Positions 16,869-25,771 of a stretch of DNA of 64,000 bases are shown piece by piece. The stretch lies in assembly GCF_007197995.1 (NCBI RefSeq), contig NZ_VKKH01000002.1:310001-374000 (forward strand), given 5' to 3'. The notes beneath the pieces were generated by a model. That model did not search any database and was not told the DNA's origin. It saw nothing but the letters and a program-made list of their open reading frames with translations. The stretch comes from Aliiglaciecola sp. M165 (GTDB taxonomy: Bacteria > Pseudomonadota > Gammaproteobacteria > Enterobacterales > Alteromonadaceae). The position numbers and the translations under genes were made by a program. Position 1 is the first letter of the stretch; the number at the start of each line of letters is the position of its first letter.

Positions 16869-17474
16869 TTACGAATGTTTCACAGCCCTGACAATTAGTC
16901 GCAAGGGGGTGTCGGGTGTAATTGAATCAAAGGGGTAGCAGGTGATCAGGGTTAACATGTCTTGACCCGCATCATTTAAGTATTCAACTTGCGAGTAGTG
17001 AGCCACACGGATTTCGTCTACGGTATAGCTCCTGGTTCCAGCAGGTGATGTCATCTGTATGATGTCTGCTTTTTTAACTGTTTCCAACACATCAAAGTGG
17101 GTGTCTCGATGGCCTGAGATCACCACATTCCCTTGTTCACCTGGTAGTGACGTCGAACTGACGTGCCCTGGCCCAAAGGCCAATACTCGACCACTACTGC
17201 CTGACAGCACATAAAGGTGCTTGTTGGCGATTTTGAGCGCGGCCACTGGATAAGTGTCCGCCCAAGACCAAGGCGCTACGGGTTGACCTGACTGTAAACT
17301 TTCTTGCCACGCATCTGCAATCAGGTATTGCGCTAATAGGGCTTTGGCGTGGATATAACCGCTTGAACCAAACAGATAAAGACTCGCACAAAAACACAAC
17401 ACAGCAATTTTGTGACTCCACATCCAGCGCCGCGCTCGCGTGGTTAGACTTTCCTGGTAAAAAACGCTATGCAT
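16869..17474 (-). CDS. Class GN sortase (proteobacterial dedicated sortase)
   Basis: A cysteine transpeptidase of about 201 residues, anchored by one N-terminal helix (IAVLCFCASLYLFGSSGYI). Catalytic residues are visible: His in VVISGHRDTHF, Cys in MLTLITCYPFD, and Arg in TPLRLIVRAV. Sortases cleave LPxTG-like signals; in proteobacteria the GN class is usually encoded beside its only substrate, as here. I used the ATG at 17474, which has AGGA eight bases upstream; an ATG eight codons earlier is possible. The start overlaps the end of the substrate gene by 31 bases (or more), so the two are translationally coupled. It is the last gene of the pdsO-substrate-sortase run. Acceptor of the transpeptidation is unknown. 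Confidence 0.93.
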   Translation of the reverse strand: MHSVFYQESLTTRARRWMWSHKIAVLCFCASLYLFGSSGYIHAKALLAQYLIADAWQESLQSGQPVAPWSWADTYPVAALKIANKHLYVLSGSSGRVLAFGPGHVSSTSLPGEQGNVVISGHRDTHFDVLETVKKADIIQMTSPAGTRSYTVDEIRVAHYSQVEYLNDAGQDMLTLITCYPFDSITPDTPLRLIVRAVKHS

Positions 17475-19597
17475 AATCCTATTCCTAAAAATATCCATGC
17501 CAATGCGTGCTGCAATTGTGCTGGCGTTGCCGTTTTTGGCAGGTTGCCCATTTGTGCCCCTTTGGGTGGCATGAGTTTGACCAGGGCATCCTGACTGATC
17601 GCCTGTGCCGAGGGGGTCACGTCAACAGCGACCAAACTGGTCATGGAACTGACGATATGATGGGCCATGGCGACGTCTTCGATTTGTTGATTAAGCGCCT
17701 GATGATCGCCACCAAACACTTTGTCACGGTCTAATTGGGCGATTTTTCTCCTTGCCCAAAGTACATCTAAACCTCTTGAGTCGGCGCCATTTTGCAACGA
17801 TAAAGACGTTTGCCAATGCTGGCTTTTAAGGTCTCCTGACACCGTTAAGTTAGACAGAGGCTGGTCGGCTCGATAGCTGATCATGATGGGTTCACCCTTG
17901 TACAAATCCGGCAGCCGCCTAGGGTAGACCTCAACGCTCTTATTAAAATTCACGGATAAGTCGGCTAGCACTGGGTTAGCTAATTTGGCAAATAGCGCCT
18001 GCATTTCGCCTTTTACTGACGCGACAGAACCGATATAGGTAAAGGTCCCCTTTCCGGCCCGCGCCGCTTCGGTCATAAAATAACTATTGGGTGCCGAACC
18101 AATCCCGACAGTGAACAACCGACTTTGCTGAATATGCTGATTGATGTAGGCGAATAGCTGGGTTTCGTTGCCCACTGACCCGTCGGTGATAAATATCACC
18201 TGACGGATCCTCTCCTGTTCTGATGAATCTGAGGATGACTGCTGTTCTAGCGCCAGTTGCAAAGCACTTAGAATATTGGTGCCCCCATCGGCAGTTAAAC
18301 CTGCGATATAACTCAATACACCTTGTTTATTATCGTCTGTCGCGTGTTTTGCTGTAGGCCATAGTTTCTTCGCATGGCTATCAAACTCCACAATATTAAA
18401 GGTGTCTGACGTGGGCAGATTAAGCACCGCATAGCTCAACGCATCCTTAGCTTGTTGCATTGACTCGCCTGACATGGAGCCAGAAGTGTCGATCACGAAC
18501 ATGACTTCTCGGGACAAGTTGGCTTCGGTACTTTGTGTATTGGGTGGCATTAACATGATCATGCCAAAGTGACCCTCTGGTGTTTGTTGAACAAAGTGCC
18601 CTGCCAACGGACGATTTGCTTGCTTGGCTTGCCAGTTCAGCACAAAATCCTGATTGGCAATCATAGACTCTTGAAGCGATACTTCGTATCTGCCATTGCC
18701 CTTATCCGATTGCAAAATGGGATGATGTACGCTGTCGATCCGAGCCAGTTCAAACCCCATGTTCAAGGTGACATTCATTGCGACTTTATTCAGTGTGGCC
18801 TGCCCATGTACCTCATTCTTATCTGCCTCATTTTCATTTTTATAGCTTTGGGGAGATGTGTCAGACGTTTGTTGTGCCTGGTAAACAGGTTCGGTCATAC
18901 CCCAACCATTTTTAGCAATTTCGACATTGTCAGCATCTACTAGCGGTAAATATCGCGGCGTAATGGTTGTGGGAAATCGTAGACTAAAGGTGTCGGTGTC
19001 ATACTGCACAGCTTGTTGATATTCGATGGTAACAATGATGGATTCACCCGGACCTATATTCGCAACCGAATTTTTAAACAAATTGGGACGCTCCTGAACT
19101 AATAAGCTGGCTTTTTTGCCTTCTCGTTTTGCTTGCTGATAAATCGCCTTGGCTTTCTTTTTGGGATGAATTTGACCTTCGATAGTTCGATCGCCAATGC
19201 GCATTTGCAAATGGTCCACTGCAGCATTTTCTGGCAAAGGGAAAACATAAATCCCGTTCATCCATTCATCACTGGTATTGGTGAATTTTTGCGTCACTCT
19301 GGCCCGTGCTATCAATCCAGTGATGTTGATATCGACTTTGGTATCCAGCAGCGGCGACAATTGATATCCAGAGCCACCCTCTTGCTGCAAAAAGAAACTG
19401 CCTTGTTCAACATGTTGGTAGTTGTCGACATAAACTGGCGGCGAATGGGTTGATACCGACTCATAGGACACGTCAATTTTAAACGAAGATTGCTCTTGTG
19501 CGTTTGACTCACCGCGGATCAGAGGCAGTGCAAATTGCACCGCCCCTATCAGCGTCAACAGCAACAGTACAATGACAAATCGCAAACGCCTAACCAT
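17444..19597 (-). CDS. Sortase target protein with VIT and VWA domains, LPKTA signal
   Basis: An exported 717-residue protein. After an N-terminal signal/anchor helix come a VIT (inter-alpha-trypsin-like) domain at about 85-210, a VWA domain at about 365-545 with an intact MIDAS motif (DTSGSMSG), and a C-terminal sorting signal: LPKTA at about 686-690, a hydrophobic helix (WIFLGIGLCIAFF) and a basic tail (TRKV). This is the layout of the marine proteobacterial sortase target family. The sortase would cut within LPKTA and attach the protein elsewhere in the envelope. The ATG at 19597 has AAGGAG seven bases upstream; a GTG two codons earlier is too close. VWA/VIT suggests metal-dependent adhesion or protein binding; the ligand is unknown. 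Confidence 0.95.
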   Translation of the reverse strand: MVRRLRFVIVLLLLTLIGAVQFALPLIRGESNAQEQSSFKIDVSYESVSTHSPPVYVDNYQHVEQGSFFLQQEGGSGYQLSPLLDTKVDINITGLIARARVTQKFTNTSDEWMNGIYVFPLPENAAVDHLQMRIGDRTIEGQIHPKKKAKAIYQQAKREGKKASLLVQERPNLFKNSVANIGPGESIIVTIEYQQAVQYDTDTFSLRFPTTITPRYLPLVDADNVEIAKNGWGMTEPVYQAQQTSDTSPQSYKNENEADKNEVHGQATLNKVAMNVTLNMGFELARIDSVHHPILQSDKGNGRYEVSLQESMIANQDFVLNWQAKQANRPLAGHFVQQTPEGHFGMIMLMPPNTQSTEANLSREVMFVIDTSGSMSGESMQQAKDALSYAVLNLPTSDTFNIVEFDSHAKKLWPTAKHATDDNKQGVLSYIAGLTADGGTNILSALQLALEQQSSSDSSEQERIRQVIFITDGSVGNETQLFAYINQHIQQSRLFTVGIGSAPNSYFMTEAARAGKGTFTYIGSVASVKGEMQALFAKLANPVLADLSVNFNKSVEVYPRRLPDLYKGEPIMISYRADQPLSNLTVSGDLKSQHWQTSLSLQNGADSRGLDVLWARRKIAQLDRDKVFGGDHQALNQQIEDVAMAHHIVSSMTSLVAVDVTPSAQAISQDALVKLMPPKGAQMGNLPKTATPAQLQHALAWIFLGIGLCIAFFTRKV

Positions 19598-19611
19598 GTT
19601 CACTCTCCTTG

Positions 19612-20343
19612 TTAATTGGATGCGGTCATTGATTGTTGACCCTGTTCAACACGCACCAAGACTCTGCGGTCAAAGAAGTGATCTTCATTGTTGGTTTGAG
19701 CAGAAACGGGCTGAGATTCACCAAAAGAGTGAGTAAGCACCTGCTTACCATTTACGCCCTTGGATACAAGATAGTCTTTGACACTAATCACCCGTTGCTG
19801 AGACAGTGCCTGGTTATAACTGTCGTCACCACGGCTATCGGCAAAGCCAGATAAGGTCACCGTTAATTCAGGATTATTTTTAAGTCCATCAGCGACTAAA
19901 TCTAATTGCGTTTTGAAGTGTTCTTCAACCACATAGGACGCCGTGCGAAACTGAATATTCGATTCCATTTCTTGCATCACACGTTCTATCTGACTGTCCA
20001 TTGCCACCAGCTGAATTTGATTTTGCTGCTGCGCCTTTTGATACTCCTTTTGTAAAACCAGCAATTGCTCTTGCTTTTGGTCCAAGGCTAAGTTGGCTTT
20101 GGCGAGTTTGTCAGTAGAGGCTTGCAGTGCATTTTCATCGTTTACGTCATCGGCAATCAATACCCCAAAAATGCCACCGATCATCGCACCCAAAGGGCCA
20201 GCAATCAGTGCACCCGCAGCAGCACCAGATCCAAAACCAATTACCTCATTGGTTTTAGCTTCATCATTGTTAGGGGCCGCATGAACATTCAAGGACAAGC
20301 TCAGTGCAATAGCAGAAAGAGTAAAAAGTGTGCGTTTTTTCAT
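19612..20343 (-). CDS. pdsO: Sortase-associated OmpA-like protein PdsO
   Basis: A 243-residue exported protein: signal peptide ending AHAAP-like (LNVHAAPNN), a glycine-zipper segment (GFGSGAAAGALIAGPLGAMIGG) that could insert in a membrane, a coiled-coil of about 60 residues (Leu/Gln-rich), and a C-terminal OmpA peptidoglycan-binding domain with LSGFADSRGDDSYNQALSQQR and FDRRVLVRV. The OmpA domain keeps the Asp and Arg needed to bind diaminopimelate. Known families place such a protein in proteobacterial dedicated sortase loci. It begins the minus-strand run, with the sortase target following after 14 bases. Tethering to peptidoglycan could place it near the sortase product; this is inference. 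Confidence 0.9.
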   Translation of the reverse strand: MKKRTLFTLSAIALSLSLNVHAAPNNDEAKTNEVIGFGSGAAAGALIAGPLGAMIGGIFGVLIADDVNDENALQASTDKLAKANLALDQKQEQLLVLQKEYQKAQQQNQIQLVAMDSQIERVMQEMESNIQFRTASYVVEEHFKTQLDLVADGLKNNPELTVTLSGFADSRGDDSYNQALSQQRVISVKDYLVSKGVNGKQVLTHSFGESQPVSAQTNNEDHFFDRRVLVRVEQGQQSMTASN

Positions 20344-20427
20344 GTTGTTCTCCAGATATCAAAAAAAGTTTTCAAAGGTTATCGAGTTAATTTTTGTTTC
20401 GATGGGAACTATTAAAACGCGCTTTTC

Positions 20428-20485
20428 TGGCAACAATTGGCAGCAAAAATGGCAATCTGGCGAGCAAATGTGGCGAAAAAATGGA
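20428..20485. promoter_or_regulatory. Row of TGGC direct repeats, candidate PdsR sites
   Basis: TGGC occurs at 20428, 20438, 20450, 20458 and 20471, with TGGA at 20482, in an AT-rich gap between the divergent pdsO and pdsR. The spacings (10, 12, 8, 13, 11) average close to one helical turn. OmpR-type regulators often bind tandem direct repeats at this spacing. Binding by PdsR is inference. Confidence 0.4.
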
Positions 20486-20567
20486 AATTGAACCTGAACC
20501 GCAAAAATCAGATTTTTAGCCGTTTATTTTGCGATATAGTGAAGTCATCTAATTGAATGAGTGATCT

Positions 20568-21260
20568 ATGTCCAAACGAATAGCCATAGTAGAAGACGAC
20601 CCAGCAATCAGGGAAAACTACGCCTCTGCATTACAAAAGCAGGGTTATGAGGTACTGACCTACGCCGACAGGAAATCTGCTGAAGACGCCTTTACCCAAC
20701 GACTGCCGGATCTGGCCATTGTCGATATAGGCTTAAATGACGAGATAGATGGAGGCTTTGTGTTGTGCCAACAATTGCGCGCATTGTCCAGAACCCTGCC
20801 CATCATCTTTTTTACTGCCCGAGACAATGACTATGACACCATTTGTGGGCTGCGCATGGGCGCTGATGATTACCTCACTAAAGACATCAGCTTGCCACAC
20901 CTTTTGGCCCGCATTGCGGCGCTGTTTCGGCGCACCGAACTGCTCAATGCCCCCACAGTTGCCACCGATTTAATTCAATCTGGCCATTTATTGATGGATA
21001 GCAACCGCATGACGGTAAGCTGGCAGGAACAACCCATTGAATTAACCGTAACCGAATTTTGGATGCTGCATGCAATTGCCAAATTTGCTGGCCACGTTAA
21101 AAGCCGTCAACAGTTGATGGACGAGTCAAAGATGGTGGTTGACGACACAACCATCACCTCGCACATAAAGCGCATCCGCCGGAAATTCCAACAACTGGAC
21201 GACAGCTTCGATCGAATTGAGACGGTGTACGGCATGGGTTACCGCTGGAAATCTAGCTAA
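20568..21260 (+). CDS. pdsR: PdsR, OmpR-type response regulator of the sortase system
   Basis: A two-domain response regulator of 230 residues. The receiver starts RIAIVEDDPAIRENY, has the phosphoacceptor aspartate in LAIVDIGL, the conserved Thr in FFTAR and Lys in YLTKDIS. The C-terminal winged helix (about 130-230) ends GMGYRW, as in OmpR/PhoB proteins. It matches the dedicated sortase system regulator family. The stop overlaps the kinase start by one base (TAATG), so the pair is coupled. It is divergent from pdsO, and the gap holds direct repeats that could be its binding sites, giving control of the sortase genes. Confidence 0.94.
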   Translation: MSKRIAIVEDDPAIRENYASALQKQGYEVLTYADRKSAEDAFTQRLPDLAIVDIGLNDEIDGGFVLCQQLRALSRTLPIIFFTARDNDYDTICGLRMGADDYLTKDISLPHLLARIAALFRRTELLNAPTVATDLIQSGHLLMDSNRMTVSWQEQPIELTVTEFWMLHAIAKFAGHVKSRQQLMDESKMVVDDTTITSHIKRIRRKFQQLDDSFDRIETVYGMGYRWKSS

Positions 21261-23419
21261 TGCTACGTTTCCGCTTTGGCATTCGCCTAAAATTGCTTTT
21301 GTTGTCACTATTCCTGTTTGCCATCCCCTGGTTGGGCTATCAGTATGTCTGGGAGCTAGAAAGTTACCTGCGTACCGGGCAGGAACAAACCATGGAAGGC
21401 ACCGCACGGGCCGTCGCTACCGCTTTGCATGAGAGGCCCTCGTTGTTTGATAGTCAGTCTTCCTATTTGCAAGACGTTAAACCCGGCACGGATCTCTATG
21501 CGCACAAAATTATCGATCCGATTCGTCTGGATGGCCAATTGGACGACTGGGCCGATTATCGCCATCTATCGTTACGTTATGGCGAAATGGAACTCATCGA
21601 GCAAAGCGAGTTTTATGACTCACAAAGCCTGCAGTTTGAACACATGGTTGGGCAGTATGCCCAATACCTGTACGCTATGTTTGAAGTCACTGACGATAAC
21701 CTGGTTTATCGCCCTTCCAATAGTTTACGGGTTGACCGCAATGATTATTTACTAATCGCGGTGACCAATGCACAGGGAGAATTTCGGCGCTACATCGTCG
21801 CCCCGCAATCCTCCGGATGGGTTAACGCCTATTTACTTGATGAAAACCCTGAGTCTTATCGTCCGGTTTCATTAGAGCGAGCCATACAGGGCAATTGGGC
21901 CGCCACGGAAAATGGCTACAACATTGAGCTGAGGTTTCCGCTGGAGATCATGTCGAGTAAAATCGCGTTTGCCATTGCCGATGTTGACGATTTAGAACAG
22001 CGCATTCGCAAATATATGATTGGTACCGCCAACCCCAACCAATCTGATGCATTGGGCACAGTGCTGGTGCCCTCACCCGAAATTGAAAAGATCCTCAAAG
22101 GCCTCAAATATTCCAACGCTCGGGTGTGGGTAGTCGACAAACACATGCGCGTACTGGCACGCTCTGGCTCAATTCAAGCAGCAACTGGAGTCAGAATGGC
22201 ACCACAAAATCGCAGTCGAGAGACCTTGTGGCAGCGCATTGAACAAGATTGGTTGTTTCCACTGTATTATCGAATATTGACCCAACCCCCTGCCGACTTT
22301 GTCGACGAGCTAGAAAATGCGTTTGCCTTAAAAGGTCAGGAACTGGCCAATGCACTCAGTGGCGATGCCAGCTCTCAGTGGCGTCTGACACCCGACAACA
22401 AAGCCGTCGTATTGTCTGCGGCGCACCCGATTTTTATTGATGAACAAGTTATGGGTGCCGTAGTGGTTGAACAAACCACCCATGGTATTCGCACCCTTAG
22501 AAATCGAGCCTTAGAGCAGCTTTTTCATGTGATCATTGCCGTGGTGCTGCTTGGCACTTCGGCATTGTTTTTGTTTGCTTCACGAATCTCGTTTCGGATC
22601 AGAAAACTGCGTAATGAAACAGAATCAGCAATTGATGAACATGGCAAAATTTTGGGCAACATTCCCCGTTCAGAAACCAAGGATGAAATTGGCGATCTGT
22701 CCCGCACTTTTCATAGTGTGTTAGACAAATTGCAGCAATACAATGGCTACCTGGAAAATATGAGCTCACGGCTGTCTCATGAATTGAGAACCCCAGTCGC
22801 GATTGTAAAGTCCTCTCTTGAAAATCTGTCAATGGAAGAAGCCTCAGACAATGACAAAGACGCGAAAAAAGAATACATCGAGCGGGCGCAATCGGGTATT
22901 CACAGGTTGAGTAAAATCCTTAGCAGCATGAGCGAAGCCACAAGACTTGAACAGGCGATTCAATCCAGCGACAAAGAAGCCTTCGATCTTCAGGAGCTGC
23001 TAAACGGCTGCACCCAGGGCTATCGGGCGGTTTATCCGAACCATCATTTTAAATTAGACACCCAAGGACTAACCAAGCGCCTTGAAGGATCCCCTGAATT
23101 GTTCGCGCAAATGCTCGACAAAATCGTCGCCAATGCCGTGGAGTTCAGCCCCCAAGGCGAGACCATCGACATTGGACTTAGCAGCGAAGGAGCGCAAATT
23201 AAACTGCGTATTGCCAACAAAGGAATCCTGTTACCTGACGATATGCATCAACAGTTGTTAGATTCAATGATCTCAGTCCGCCCTCATCAACAGGATGATC
23301 AAACCCATCTGGGCCTGGGCTTATACATCGCCAAAATGATTGCCGAGTACCACAAAGCGCAAATAAGTATTCAAAATCAACAGGATTTATCGGGAGTGCA
23401 GGTGAGTGTCACTCTCTAA
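21260..23419 (+). CDS. pdsS: PdsS, sensor histidine kinase of the sortase system
   Basis: A membrane kinase of 719 residues. A first helix at about 9-29 is followed by a periplasmic region of some 390 residues, a second helix at about 417-438 (VIIAVVLLGTSALFLFA), a HAMP-like linker, an H-box (SRLSHELRTPVAIV, His about 507), and an ATPase domain with N-box DKIVANAVEFSP and GLGLYIAKMIAEY. The periplasmic region contains PIRLDGQLDDWADY and later beta-strand-rich sequence, a pattern seen in carbohydrate-binding family 9-like domains, so the signal may be a sugar polymer. It belongs with the dedicated sortase system kinase family and is coupled to pdsR. Signal identity is inferred only. Confidence 0.93.
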   Translation: MLRFRFGIRLKLLLLSLFLFAIPWLGYQYVWELESYLRTGQEQTMEGTARAVATALHERPSLFDSQSSYLQDVKPGTDLYAHKIIDPIRLDGQLDDWADYRHLSLRYGEMELIEQSEFYDSQSLQFEHMVGQYAQYLYAMFEVTDDNLVYRPSNSLRVDRNDYLLIAVTNAQGEFRRYIVAPQSSGWVNAYLLDENPESYRPVSLERAIQGNWAATENGYNIELRFPLEIMSSKIAFAIADVDDLEQRIRKYMIGTANPNQSDALGTVLVPSPEIEKILKGLKYSNARVWVVDKHMRVLARSGSIQAATGVRMAPQNRSRETLWQRIEQDWLFPLYYRILTQPPADFVDELENAFALKGQELANALSGDASSQWRLTPDNKAVVLSAAHPIFIDEQVMGAVVVEQTTHGIRTLRNRALEQLFHVIIAVVLLGTSALFLFASRISFRIRKLRNETESAIDEHGKILGNIPRSETKDEIGDLSRTFHSVLDKLQQYNGYLENMSSRLSHELRTPVAIVKSSLENLSMEEASDNDKDAKKEYIERAQSGIHRLSKILSSMSEATRLEQAIQSSDKEAFDLQELLNGCTQGYRAVYPNHHFKLDTQGLTKRLEGSPELFAQMLDKIVANAVEFSPQGETIDIGLSSEGAQIKLRIANKGILLPDDMHQQLLDSMISVRPHQQDDQTHLGLGLYIAKMIAEYHKAQISIQNQQDLSGVQVSVTL

Positions 23420-23950: not shown

Positions 23951-25771
23951 TTGTCTACCAAACGAATAAGCTGGCTGTTGCCAGCTTTCTTGTTTCTGAG
24001 TTTCAATAGTTTTGCCTCAGACACTCGAACAGCATTCAATAAAGCACTTCAACTCAATCTGGATTCGAATCCCAAGTGGTTGTCCCTTCTTCATATTAAA
24101 AATGATCAACCTCAAATCACTGATTCTCGTTTTATATTGAGCGATGATAATTTCTCTCCGGCAAAAGAACTTGAAAAAACATTAGAATTTTTTTTTGAGG
24201 CTCCAGACGTCGCTAAATGCAGATTCCCAGCGCGATATATGTTTTTGGACCATTATCTGGATCTACAAAACTATGGAGTTTTGCCTGCTGAAGATTGTCC
24301 CGAGTTAAACAGATATAAAAAATATGTCCCCTATGATCAGCTGAATTTAATTTTTGCATCAGAGGTACTTGCTTCCGCCTCAAGTATGATGGGCCATTCG
24401 TTTCTGAATGCAACGGGAAAAAACTTCAATAGCACTGAGGTATCTCATTCTATTTCATTTTTTACCGAGTTTGATTCTTTCAACCCAGCAGTGTTGATAT
24501 ACGATGGATTAGTCGCAGGAATGAAAGGCTTATTTATCGTAAGACCTTTTGAGAAAGATCTAAATCGTTACTCTCAATCTGAAGGCAGAAACGTCTGGTC
24601 ATTTAGCTTAGACATTAATGATTTTGACAGAGATCTCATTAAACTGCACATATGGGAACTTAAAGACGTAGAAATTGAGTACCTTTTCCAGTCGTATAAC
24701 TGTGCGACCTTAACTCTCTATATTTTATCGATTGCCAACCCAGAGCTGATTAAAGAAGACATTTTATTTGTGAGCCCCTTGGATGTCGCGAAAGCTGCCA
24801 GTAAATACGGAATGATCAAAGACATTGGCGTTGAGCTTTCTGACGATTGGGCGTTAAAAATGCTGGAACAAGAAATTGACCGTAAAGTTGGCAAAAACAT
24901 CGAAGATATGGTGTTTAAAAATGAAAATGTCCAACTTGATCATTTGGATCAGAATTCTAGACGTTTCGCGGTAGAGTACCTTTACCGTTTAATTGAAAAT
25001 GAAAAAGTAAAATCTAACTTAAGCGAAAAACGTCTTCTAGAGTTAACCAAGCTAGCAGATGCCAATTTAGATAGCTCCGTTGATTTTGACTTATCAGAAT
25101 TTAAGAACCCGCTCAAGACTCCGCAAGATTCTTTGTTTGCAGTTTCTTACGTCCAGAATTCGGACGACAACGCTATCGATTTAACTATTTTACCCGCTTC
25201 GAAATATCTCTACGGTGATAATCGCCAGTATTTCTCAGAATCGGAATTAAAAATAGGCGAGCTTAGCGTTAGAGTGGATACTGATTCTGCTAACACCAAA
25301 TTGCAATCGTTGACGCTATACGCTTTTAAAACACTCGCGCCAAGCTCAGATATCTTACCTAAATACTCAGGCAGTTTTTACCTGGGATACAGGCAGCTAT
25401 TGGACAAAGATTTACACGAAAACGGATACTTAAATCTTTCTGGAGGCATTGGTAAAAGTAAGAGATTCCACAAAGACATATTGCTGTTTGCTTATGTAGA
25501 TCTTGGTATGGCAGCGAAGCCATCTAACACTTATTTTTATGCTGAACCTGCTGTCGGTGCCATTGTCAATCTTATTGCAGACAGCAAAGTCATGCTCGAA
25601 TATAAAATGACGACTGAACAAAATGACTTACAAACCAGCATTCAAGCTTTTAAGACTCAATATTCTTGGTATGGGCAAGACAACTGGACTTTGCAGCTAT
25701 CACATACTTATCTGAAAACGTCTTCCACAAAGGATAATGAAATACTATTCAGTGTTGCGCGACATTTTTAA
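23951..25771 (+). CDS. Lnb-like (DUF4105) periplasmic/outer-membrane protein
   Basis: A 606-residue exported protein with signal peptide ISWLLPAFLFLSFNSFAS. The N-terminal half carries DUF4105-type motifs: SSMMGHSFLN (His about 149) and YNCATLTLY (Cys about 251), a likely catalytic His/Cys pair as in the papain-like/NlpC-type folds. Related N-terminal domains are named after Lnb, a lipoprotein N-acyltransferase described in Bacteroides. The last 150 residues alternate hydrophobic strands with turns (SGSFYLGYRQLL, YLNLSGGIGK, LLFAYVDLG) and end in ARHF, which suggests an outer-membrane beta-barrel. The start is a TTG, with no obvious ribosome site, five bases after the lipoprotein gene, so translation is probably coupled. 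A function on that lipoprotein is speculative. Similar two-part proteins occur in other gammaproteobacteria. Confidence 0.82.
   Translation: MSTKRISWLLPAFLFLSFNSFASDTRTAFNKALQLNLDSNPKWLSLLHIKNDQPQITDSRFILSDDNFSPAKELEKTLEFFFEAPDVAKCRFPARYMFLDHYLDLQNYGVLPAEDCPELNRYKKYVPYDQLNLIFASEVLASASSMMGHSFLNATGKNFNSTEVSHSISFFTEFDSFNPAVLIYDGLVAGMKGLFIVRPFEKDLNRYSQSEGRNVWSFSLDINDFDRDLIKLHIWELKDVEIEYLFQSYNCATLTLYILSIANPELIKEDILFVSPLDVAKAASKYGMIKDIGVELSDDWALKMLEQEIDRKVGKNIEDMVFKNENVQLDHLDQNSRRFAVEYLYRLIENEKVKSNLSEKRLLELTKLADANLDSSVDFDLSEFKNPLKTPQDSLFAVSYVQNSDDNAIDLTILPASKYLYGDNRQYFSESELKIGELSVRVDTDSANTKLQSLTLYAFKTLAPSSDILPKYSGSFYLGYRQLLDKDLHENGYLNLSGGIGKSKRFHKDILLFAYVDLGMAAKPSNTYFYAEPAVGAIVNLIADSKVMLEYKMTTEQNDLQTSIQAFKTQYSWYGQDNWTLQLSHTYLKTSSTKDNEILFSVARHF

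Follow-up and report, generated by a model that had tools for sequence, protein, structure and literature searches.

A complete Pds locus in Aliiglaciecola sp. M165 and a candidate promoter element that may join its sensory module to its sortase pair

The window analyzed here, a 64,000-nucleotide stretch of the Aliiglaciecola sp. M165 genome (4.6 Mb, 29 contigs), carries adjacent genes for a sortase, its substrate, PdsO, PdsR and PdsS, all five of which pass their own NCBIfam cut-offs (Table 1). The earlier note on this DNA had claimed a complete five-gene system, and both the genes and their positions were borne out. The locus is a textbook example of an already known, little-studied Gram-negative anchoring system: it matches the Pds system (TIGR03784, TIGR03785, TIGR03787, TIGR03788 and TIGR03789) in all five components, in their adjacency and in the single target, and no component differs. 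Systems of this kind have been in print since 2011, and that description has the substrate adjoining the sortase, with one target (PMC3237569); in another paper, the role of sortases in Gram-negative bacteria "remains unknown" (PMC10581121). Two further sources contribute general background (PMC1569441) and an Ensifer gene listed under the family name of the substrate (PMC6637203). Among the open-licence papers listed, we noticed none on the function of the sortase in a Pds system or on a PdsR site. New with respect to the known system are the proposed PdsR box, the split layout, the PdsO/R/S modules lacking a sortase and the LPxTA-T consensus; worth passing on are the proposed regulatory box, its occurrence beside unlinked pairs and the existence of PdsO/R/S in their own right. 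The closest named relatives by sortase, among the matches listed, are two Aliiglaciecola lipolytica genomes (55% identity).

Table 1. Genes and sequence elements of the Pds locus, in window coordinates
Feature	Position	Strand	Basis or remark
Class GN sortase gene	16869-17498	-	TIGR03784, 202.3 bits against a cut-off of 158.25; alignment
Substrate gene: VIT and VWA domains, full MIDAS, C-terminal sorting signal	17444-19603	-	TIGR03788, 760.5 against 551.65 bits
Rest of the sorting signal: hydrophobic stretch, basic RKV end and stop	17444-17527	-	The genome's one full match to the tail profile
LPKTA sorting motif (residues 688-692); cleavage predicted between T and A	17528-17542	-	Family motif
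pdsO: OmpA-like domain; signal peptide and glycine-rich stretch (by eye)	19612-20343	-	TIGR03789, 228 against 152 bits; Pfam OmpA
Proposed PdsR box, 46 bp, TGGC repeats 21 and 11 bp apart	20445-20490	+	Between pdsO and pdsR
TATAGT, -10-like element of pdsR, 44 bp past the box	20535-20540	+	Box-promoter spacing
pdsR: OmpR/PhoB-type response regulator	20568-21260	+	TIGR03787, 413 against 336 bits
pdsS: sensor histidine kinase	21260-23419	+	TIGR03785, 1000 against 612 bits
Part of the PdsS periplasmic region that resembles CBM9, next to a Cache-like part	21659-22039	+	Weak: E 0.0072, below the Pfam cut-off

The His/Cys/Arg triad previously assigned to the sortase agrees with the alignment, H130, H134, C187 and R200 being invariant in 24 aligned sortases, and a whole-genome search returned one sortase-domain match in this genome. 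The second-best family is class D, in the form of the LPxTATN-specific SrtD (NF058671, 89 bits), from which the window sortase differs by scores under the class D cut-offs (89 versus 140 bits for NF058671, 82.6 versus 165 bits for NF033746), by its Gram-negative envelope and by its single dedicated substrate. Likeness to class C is lower (61 bits); together with the single partner substrate, it would fit a pilus-like, polymerizing sortase that joins the substrate to its own copies via a lysine. However, class D outscores class C, and none of the lysines is kept in all 74 substrates compared (K540, the most conserved, is present in 89%), making such polymerization very unlikely. The substrate and sortase frames, described earlier as overlapping, share 55 bp when counted from the first sortase ATG; an alternative ATG at 17474, preceded by AGGA, would leave a 31-bp overlap and may be the true start, and a third at 17423 would leave none. 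Among called frames of the relatives and the window, 177 of 178 substrate/sortase pairs overlap or lie at most 60 bp apart, individual overlap lengths being unsure since some called frames start too early.

The VIT and VWA domains of the substrate match Pfam, and none of the 74 substrates aligned, among them that of the window, deviates at the MIDAS residues D372, S374, S376, T442 and D474. LPKTA is followed by a hydrophobic stretch and RKV. The architecture proposed from the letters (VIT, VWA with MIDAS, LPKTA, helix and basic tail) holds. A sorting motif could be assigned in 101 of 102 substrates with a pattern that demanded P/A, T/G and A/G/S/D, so that the resulting motif profile is partly built in: residue 1 is L in 49, M in 24, F in 12 and Y in 9; residue 2 is P in 83 and A in 18; residue 4 is T in 94 and G in 7; residue 5 is A in 91, S in 5, D in 3 and G in 2; and residue 6 is T in 63 and L in 24. 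The sorting motif of the family is [LMFY][PA]xTA-T, not LPXTG. The substrates thereby resemble those of class D sortases, likewise having Ala after the predicted scissile Thr, followed by Thr in 63 of 101.

That the sortase has one substrate, as the earlier note had stated, is upheld by whole-genome searches. Beside the single sortase, one protein in the genome scores above the TIGR03788 cut-off (a second match, 62 bits, spans the VWA part alone), and a tail profile made from 40 sorting tails finds the window tail at E 7.5e-13 and then three partial chance matches; these, namely two mid-protein stretches and one 66-amino-acid frame, were rejected as second LPxTA tails, leaving no further full sorting tail in the genome. 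At E ≤ 0.1, the same profile recovered the known substrate in 48 of 60 sortase-bearing relatives, some of which had contributed tails to it; the 12 other matches were partial, the longest on the motif side covering positions 2 to 20 of 38 (genome G382, E 0.065). One sortase and one substrate per genome is thus supported at the sensitivity of the tail profile. The generic LPXTG model (TIGR01167), run on the M165 genome at E ≤ 10, gave 8 matches, and the window substrate tail was not among them, so that the search for LPxTG tails which the earlier note had called for could overlook Pds substrates.

Several of these 60 genomes also encode VIT-VWA paralogues. In 11 of 15 paralogue regions taken from them, the tail is glycine-rich, hydrophobic and mostly basic (by eye), and the GlyGly-CTERM model placed 3 of 10 paralogue tails above its cut-off, with 5 more weak matches. 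The GlyGly-CTERM/rhombosortase system has the motif-helix-basic tail in common with Pds substrates, and its tail is borne by the same VIT-VWA passenger family in part of these genomes (see also PMC3237569); it differs in that rhombosortase is an intramembrane serine protease rather than a sortase and that the window substrate bears LPKTA. Within a single cell, proteins of the VIT-VWA passenger family thus seem to follow two different routes; this fits two destinations but proves neither. Since the paralogues indicate that the family can be processed by other routes, the Pds sortase might be a pure processing protease that cuts the tail and releases the substrate to the periplasm or for export, with no covalent attachment. 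The invariant His, Cys and Arg speak against this, although they do not by themselves exclude hydrolysis, and we consider a pure protease unlikely.

The layout of the genes was compared across 111 genomes with a sortase match, from which two contig-end fragments (G442 and G467) were left out, giving 109 sortase loci (108 from relatives and the window). The substrate adjoins the sortase in 102 of them; among the other seven, four are cut by contig ends and three (L065, L066 and L067) are exceptions. All five genes lie within the retrieved stretch in 38 of the 109 loci and the substrate and sortase alone in 46; among the 80 named loci listed, the substrate is found in 76 and the full five-gene set in 27. 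Forty of the 46 pair-only genomes, 27 from the same family and 13 more distant, were searched for PdsO and PdsS elsewhere. In the 27 split genomes of the family, PdsS is above its cut-off in all and PdsO in 26, and pdsO-pdsR-pdsS form a separate cluster, which in G391 and G462 is on the same contig some 20 kb away. The locus-level impression that PdsO is missing from half of the sortase genomes was therefore discarded, because a search of whole genomes of the family located PdsO away from the pair, together with PdsS. In the 13 more distant genomes, PdsO is above its cut-off in none (131 to 144 bits in 4), and PdsS is above its cut-off in 4 and below it in 2; at E ≤ 1e-60, PdsS was not found in the remaining 7, three of which are less than 85% complete, so that the link between PdsS and the pair is not universal. 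No gene family besides the five occurs in more than 19 of the 109 loci; the next cluster (19 loci, both strands, ABC-transporter-like judging from one member) was rejected as a conserved sixth neighbor.

Within the family, the sensory genes also exist without the pair. Of 118 family genomes, 86 carry PdsS and 58 the sortase, and none has the sortase without PdsS (Fisher p 1.7e-12, uncorrected for relatedness, the identity of the 118 genomes across both counts being read from lists in which some negatives go unnamed). PdsS without a sortase match occurs in 28 genomes, 24 of them at least 99% complete; these are classed as sortase-less on the sortase search alone and not on the substrate family TIGR03788. 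A quick tree built from 42 PdsS proteins includes 10 sortase-less rows, whose distribution requires 6 changes, 5 or more of them on well-supported branches; the genomes behind two of these rows (G439 and G458) are incomplete. Close reading of five sortase-less loci showed the ordinary arrangement of pdsO, the box, pdsR and pdsS in each. Judged by gene content, the name "dedicated sortase system" fits the sortase pair, and PdsO/R/S are independent of the sortase in their own family.

This distribution bears on the place of PdsO, which the earlier note had put forward as acceptor or guide in a surface-display machine, with the processed substrate crossing the outer membrane. PdsO does have an OmpA domain of the peptidoglycan-binding type, and its gene lies upstream of the substrate gene on the same strand in the window. 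However, PdsO accompanies PdsS above cut-off in 26 of the 27 split family genomes, is present in the five sortase-less loci and is missing, despite PdsR and PdsS, from 13 of the 109 sortase loci (17 of the 80 named loci listed); furthermore, the lack of any additional family in more than 19 loci means that no dedicated exporter stands out. PdsO goes with PdsR/S and not with the sortase in the family, which weakens its proposed role, and surface display, which gains no support here, appears improbable.

Upstream of pdsR, linked and split loci share a 46-bp element with TGGC repeats, AAAAATGGCAATgtgg.GAtCAAaTGTGGCaAaAAaATGGcAATTg, the proposed PdsR box (Table 1), in a search that dropped 20 pdsR-bearing loci and 5 of 33 split regions owing to misfit of the start pattern. 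It scores above all 2200 shuffles in 36 of 45 pdsO-pdsR regions of linked loci; the same holds for 25 of 28 pdsR regions from split loci and for 10 of 37 others ("R"-type), leaving 9, 3 and 27 regions, respectively, in which the highest shuffle was not exceeded. These counts include training sites, which the tests on the substrate side exclude. In that held-out test, 27 split loci of 12.8 to 19.9 kb each were scanned on both strands. For 26 of them, the top-scoring site was found between -350 and +120 relative to the called start of the unlinked substrate gene; the exception, L131, has it slightly outside this range, inside a called frame that is probably over-long. The score exceeds 20 bits in 24 of the 27 loci and is at most 9 in L117, L148 and L168; two of the split loci, L132 and L133, are near copies.

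A sequence-only box model built from 44 pdsR-side sites was then applied with stricter search filters to 60 whole genomes. The M165 genome has one strong box (E 2.7e-14), the next site being at 0.02. A substrate-side box is found at E ≤ 0.003 in 23 of 27 split genomes, the exceptions being G435, G348, G466 and G379; the genome-wide scan gave no box under E 0.02 in G348 and G466 and a single one, at 0.015, in G379. In 19 sortase-less genomes, a box at E < 0.002 occurs in all 9 with PdsS, and none is below 0.0065 in the 10 without PdsS. The window and the 80 named loci listed, 36 of which had supplied pdsR regions to the building of the box, hold 45 box matches at E ≤ 0.5, 44 of them outside the window: in the named loci, 31 of 31 matches at E ≤ 0.01 and 12 of 13 weaker ones sit at pds promoters (by eye, some of them within frames called too long). 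Substrate genes without pdsR at the locus are among these places, for example in Methylophaga (2.7e-6) and Grimontia (5e-4) and, with weak scores, in Kangiella and Enterovibrio records.

Six further sites at E < 0.001 in the 60 genomes lie away from pdsR and the substrate gene: G391:C7:17911, G380:C1:4390194, G389:C1:3608872, G399:C14:469683 and weaker ones in G388 and G371; G403 also has a weaker extra site.

The position of the box relative to the promoters is constrained as well. On the pdsR side, 41 of 61 boxes have a TATAGT 20 to 70 bp downstream and 20 have none; the distance is 33 bp in 29, 44 bp in 7, as in the window, and within one base of either in 5, the two spacings differing by the 11-bp repeat unit. 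Of the 23 boxes before substrate genes in split loci, 16 have TGNNNNAAT beginning exactly 25 bp past the box. Such a fixed box-promoter spacing is the pattern of an activator site, and PdsR would act as an activator. OmpR/PhoB-type regulators bind upstream of the promoters they control, at tandem direct repeats spaced by about 11 bp, roughly a helical turn; the TGGC repeats 21 and 11 bp apart and the fixed spacing to -10-like elements have this form, and PdsR is probably the protein that binds the proposed box. Alternatively, a different protein that accompanies PdsR could bind it, in which case PdsR/S would not control the sortase pair. Against this stand the tracking of PdsS by the box in the sortase-less genomes (9 of 9 versus 0 of 10), its marking of both pdsR itself and the unlinked pair, the few strong sites elsewhere (the six listed above) and the OmpR/PhoB-like arrangement of its direct repeats; hence, we give another regulator little chance. 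Two-component control of the sortase pair by PdsR and PdsS, as the earlier note had supposed, gains further support from the proposed box at pdsR and at the unlinked substrate gene, which suggests a conserved DNA switch linking sensor to anchoring genes even when these are far apart in the genome. The nearest known two-component system is CreBC: after their own families, PdsR and PdsS match CreB and CreC best in NCBIfam. Their scores fall far short of the CreB and CreC cut-offs, and PdsS has a CBM9-like part beside its Cache-like sensor.

In 38 aligned PdsS periplasmic regions, matches at E ≤ 0.1 are to Cache_WalK in 23, dCache in 14 and CBM9_1 in 13 (best 6e-7), and a PDB profile search with the region gave xylanase CBM9 domains as best matches (E 0.0013 and 0.032). 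A solved CBM9 domain has two sugar-stacking Trp. In a weak alignment read by eye, the PdsS residues at the corresponding positions are not Trp, and, as the stacking Trp are not kept, sensing of carbohydrate by PdsS is only a guess.

Altogether, we propose a model of two modules joined by one DNA switch, to which we give a probability of about 0.6. In the first module (pdsO, pdsR and pdsS), PdsS would sense the envelope through its large Cache-like and CBM9-like periplasmic region, with PdsO as an OmpA-like partner. The second module, the client of the first, would consist of a sortase and its one partner, a VIT-VWA protein exported by Sec and ending in an LPKTA-helix-basic tail. Once phosphorylated, PdsR would occupy the tandem TGGC box and activate both pdsR-pdsS and the operon of pdsO, substrate and sortase that diverges from it; the sortase would then cut the substrate between T and A and pass it to an amino group, most likely that of meso-DAP in lipid II, placing the VIT-VWA protein on the peptidoglycan. 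Class D sortases of DAP-type Gram-positive cells join proteins to the DAP side chain, and proteobacterial peptidoglycan is of the DAP type; direct transfer to DAP is thus the simplest acceptor hypothesis, by analogy with class D. Anchoring to peptidoglycan facing the periplasm, the predicted location, is at least as likely as surface display.

Beyond this locus, PdsO/R/S could represent an independent envelope-sensing module of Gammaproteobacteria rather than a part of a sortase system, with a near-minimal regulon made of itself and, where present, one sortase-anchored VIT-VWA protein, the pairs having been repeatedly lost or gained and being connected to it through a single conserved box whether linked or not; we see the odds of this broader proposal as even. 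The separability of the two modules makes sortase-less strains the place to look for what PdsO/R/S senses, and the box offers an experimental handle on the system, as a reporter, as a footprint and as a route to the inducing signal.

Four strong sites matching the proposed PdsR box, the tandem TGGC-repeat element between pdsO and pdsR, occur elsewhere in relatives (table below), two of them in sortase-less genomes; these could possibly be other PdsR targets. Near pdsR itself, two relatives from one genus (G399 and G441) carry a tandem pair of boxes, ~65 bp apart, in loci of the L129 type.

In the window, the Pds locus is adjoined by a gene carrying an Lnb_N periplasmic domain together with DUF7840 and DUF7843, and this gene is not visibly among the families recurring in at least five fetched loci. 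Elsewhere in the window's own genome, a protein ends in a PEP-hydrophobic-RRRKS C-terminus resembling, by eye, that of PEP-CTERM proteins, and because of this tail a second sorting system may exist there.

Three GN-like sortases fall under the class GN cut-off (L065 in genome G032, L066 in G284, and L064 in G177, whose locus is truncated at a contig end), and no recognisable substrate lies upstream of the L065 and L066 sortases within 6 and 10 kb, respectively. The L067 sortase, from a genome of the same class as the window's own, scores higher as class D than as class GN (120.9 versus 77.3 bits) and is directly preceded by a 247-aa, non-VIT-VWA protein with a C-terminal LPATAS-helix tail. Some metagenome bins with the labels Deltaproteobacteria, Acidobacteria, Nitrospinota, Binatia or Myxococcota also carry relatives of the class GN sortase, and thus this kind of sortase may extend past Proteobacteria.

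Positions of the features discussed
Feature	Location
Lnb_N periplasmic domain + DUF7840 + DUF7843 gene	window 23951-25771
PEP-CTERM-like tail (L176)	own genome C29:429003-429065
Additional strong box sites	G391:C7:17911; G380:C1:4390194; G389:C1:3608872; G399:C14:469683
Tandem box pairs	G399:C18:8009-8112; G441:C1:1658128-1658231
Class-D-leaning sortase (genome G352)	L067:9048-10515
Class GN relatives in metagenome bins	L236, L256, L257, L260, L268, L271, L275, L278, L280, L281, L282
Sortase-adjoining substrate gene fragmented by frame changes (metagenome-assembled record)	L280:9220-9965
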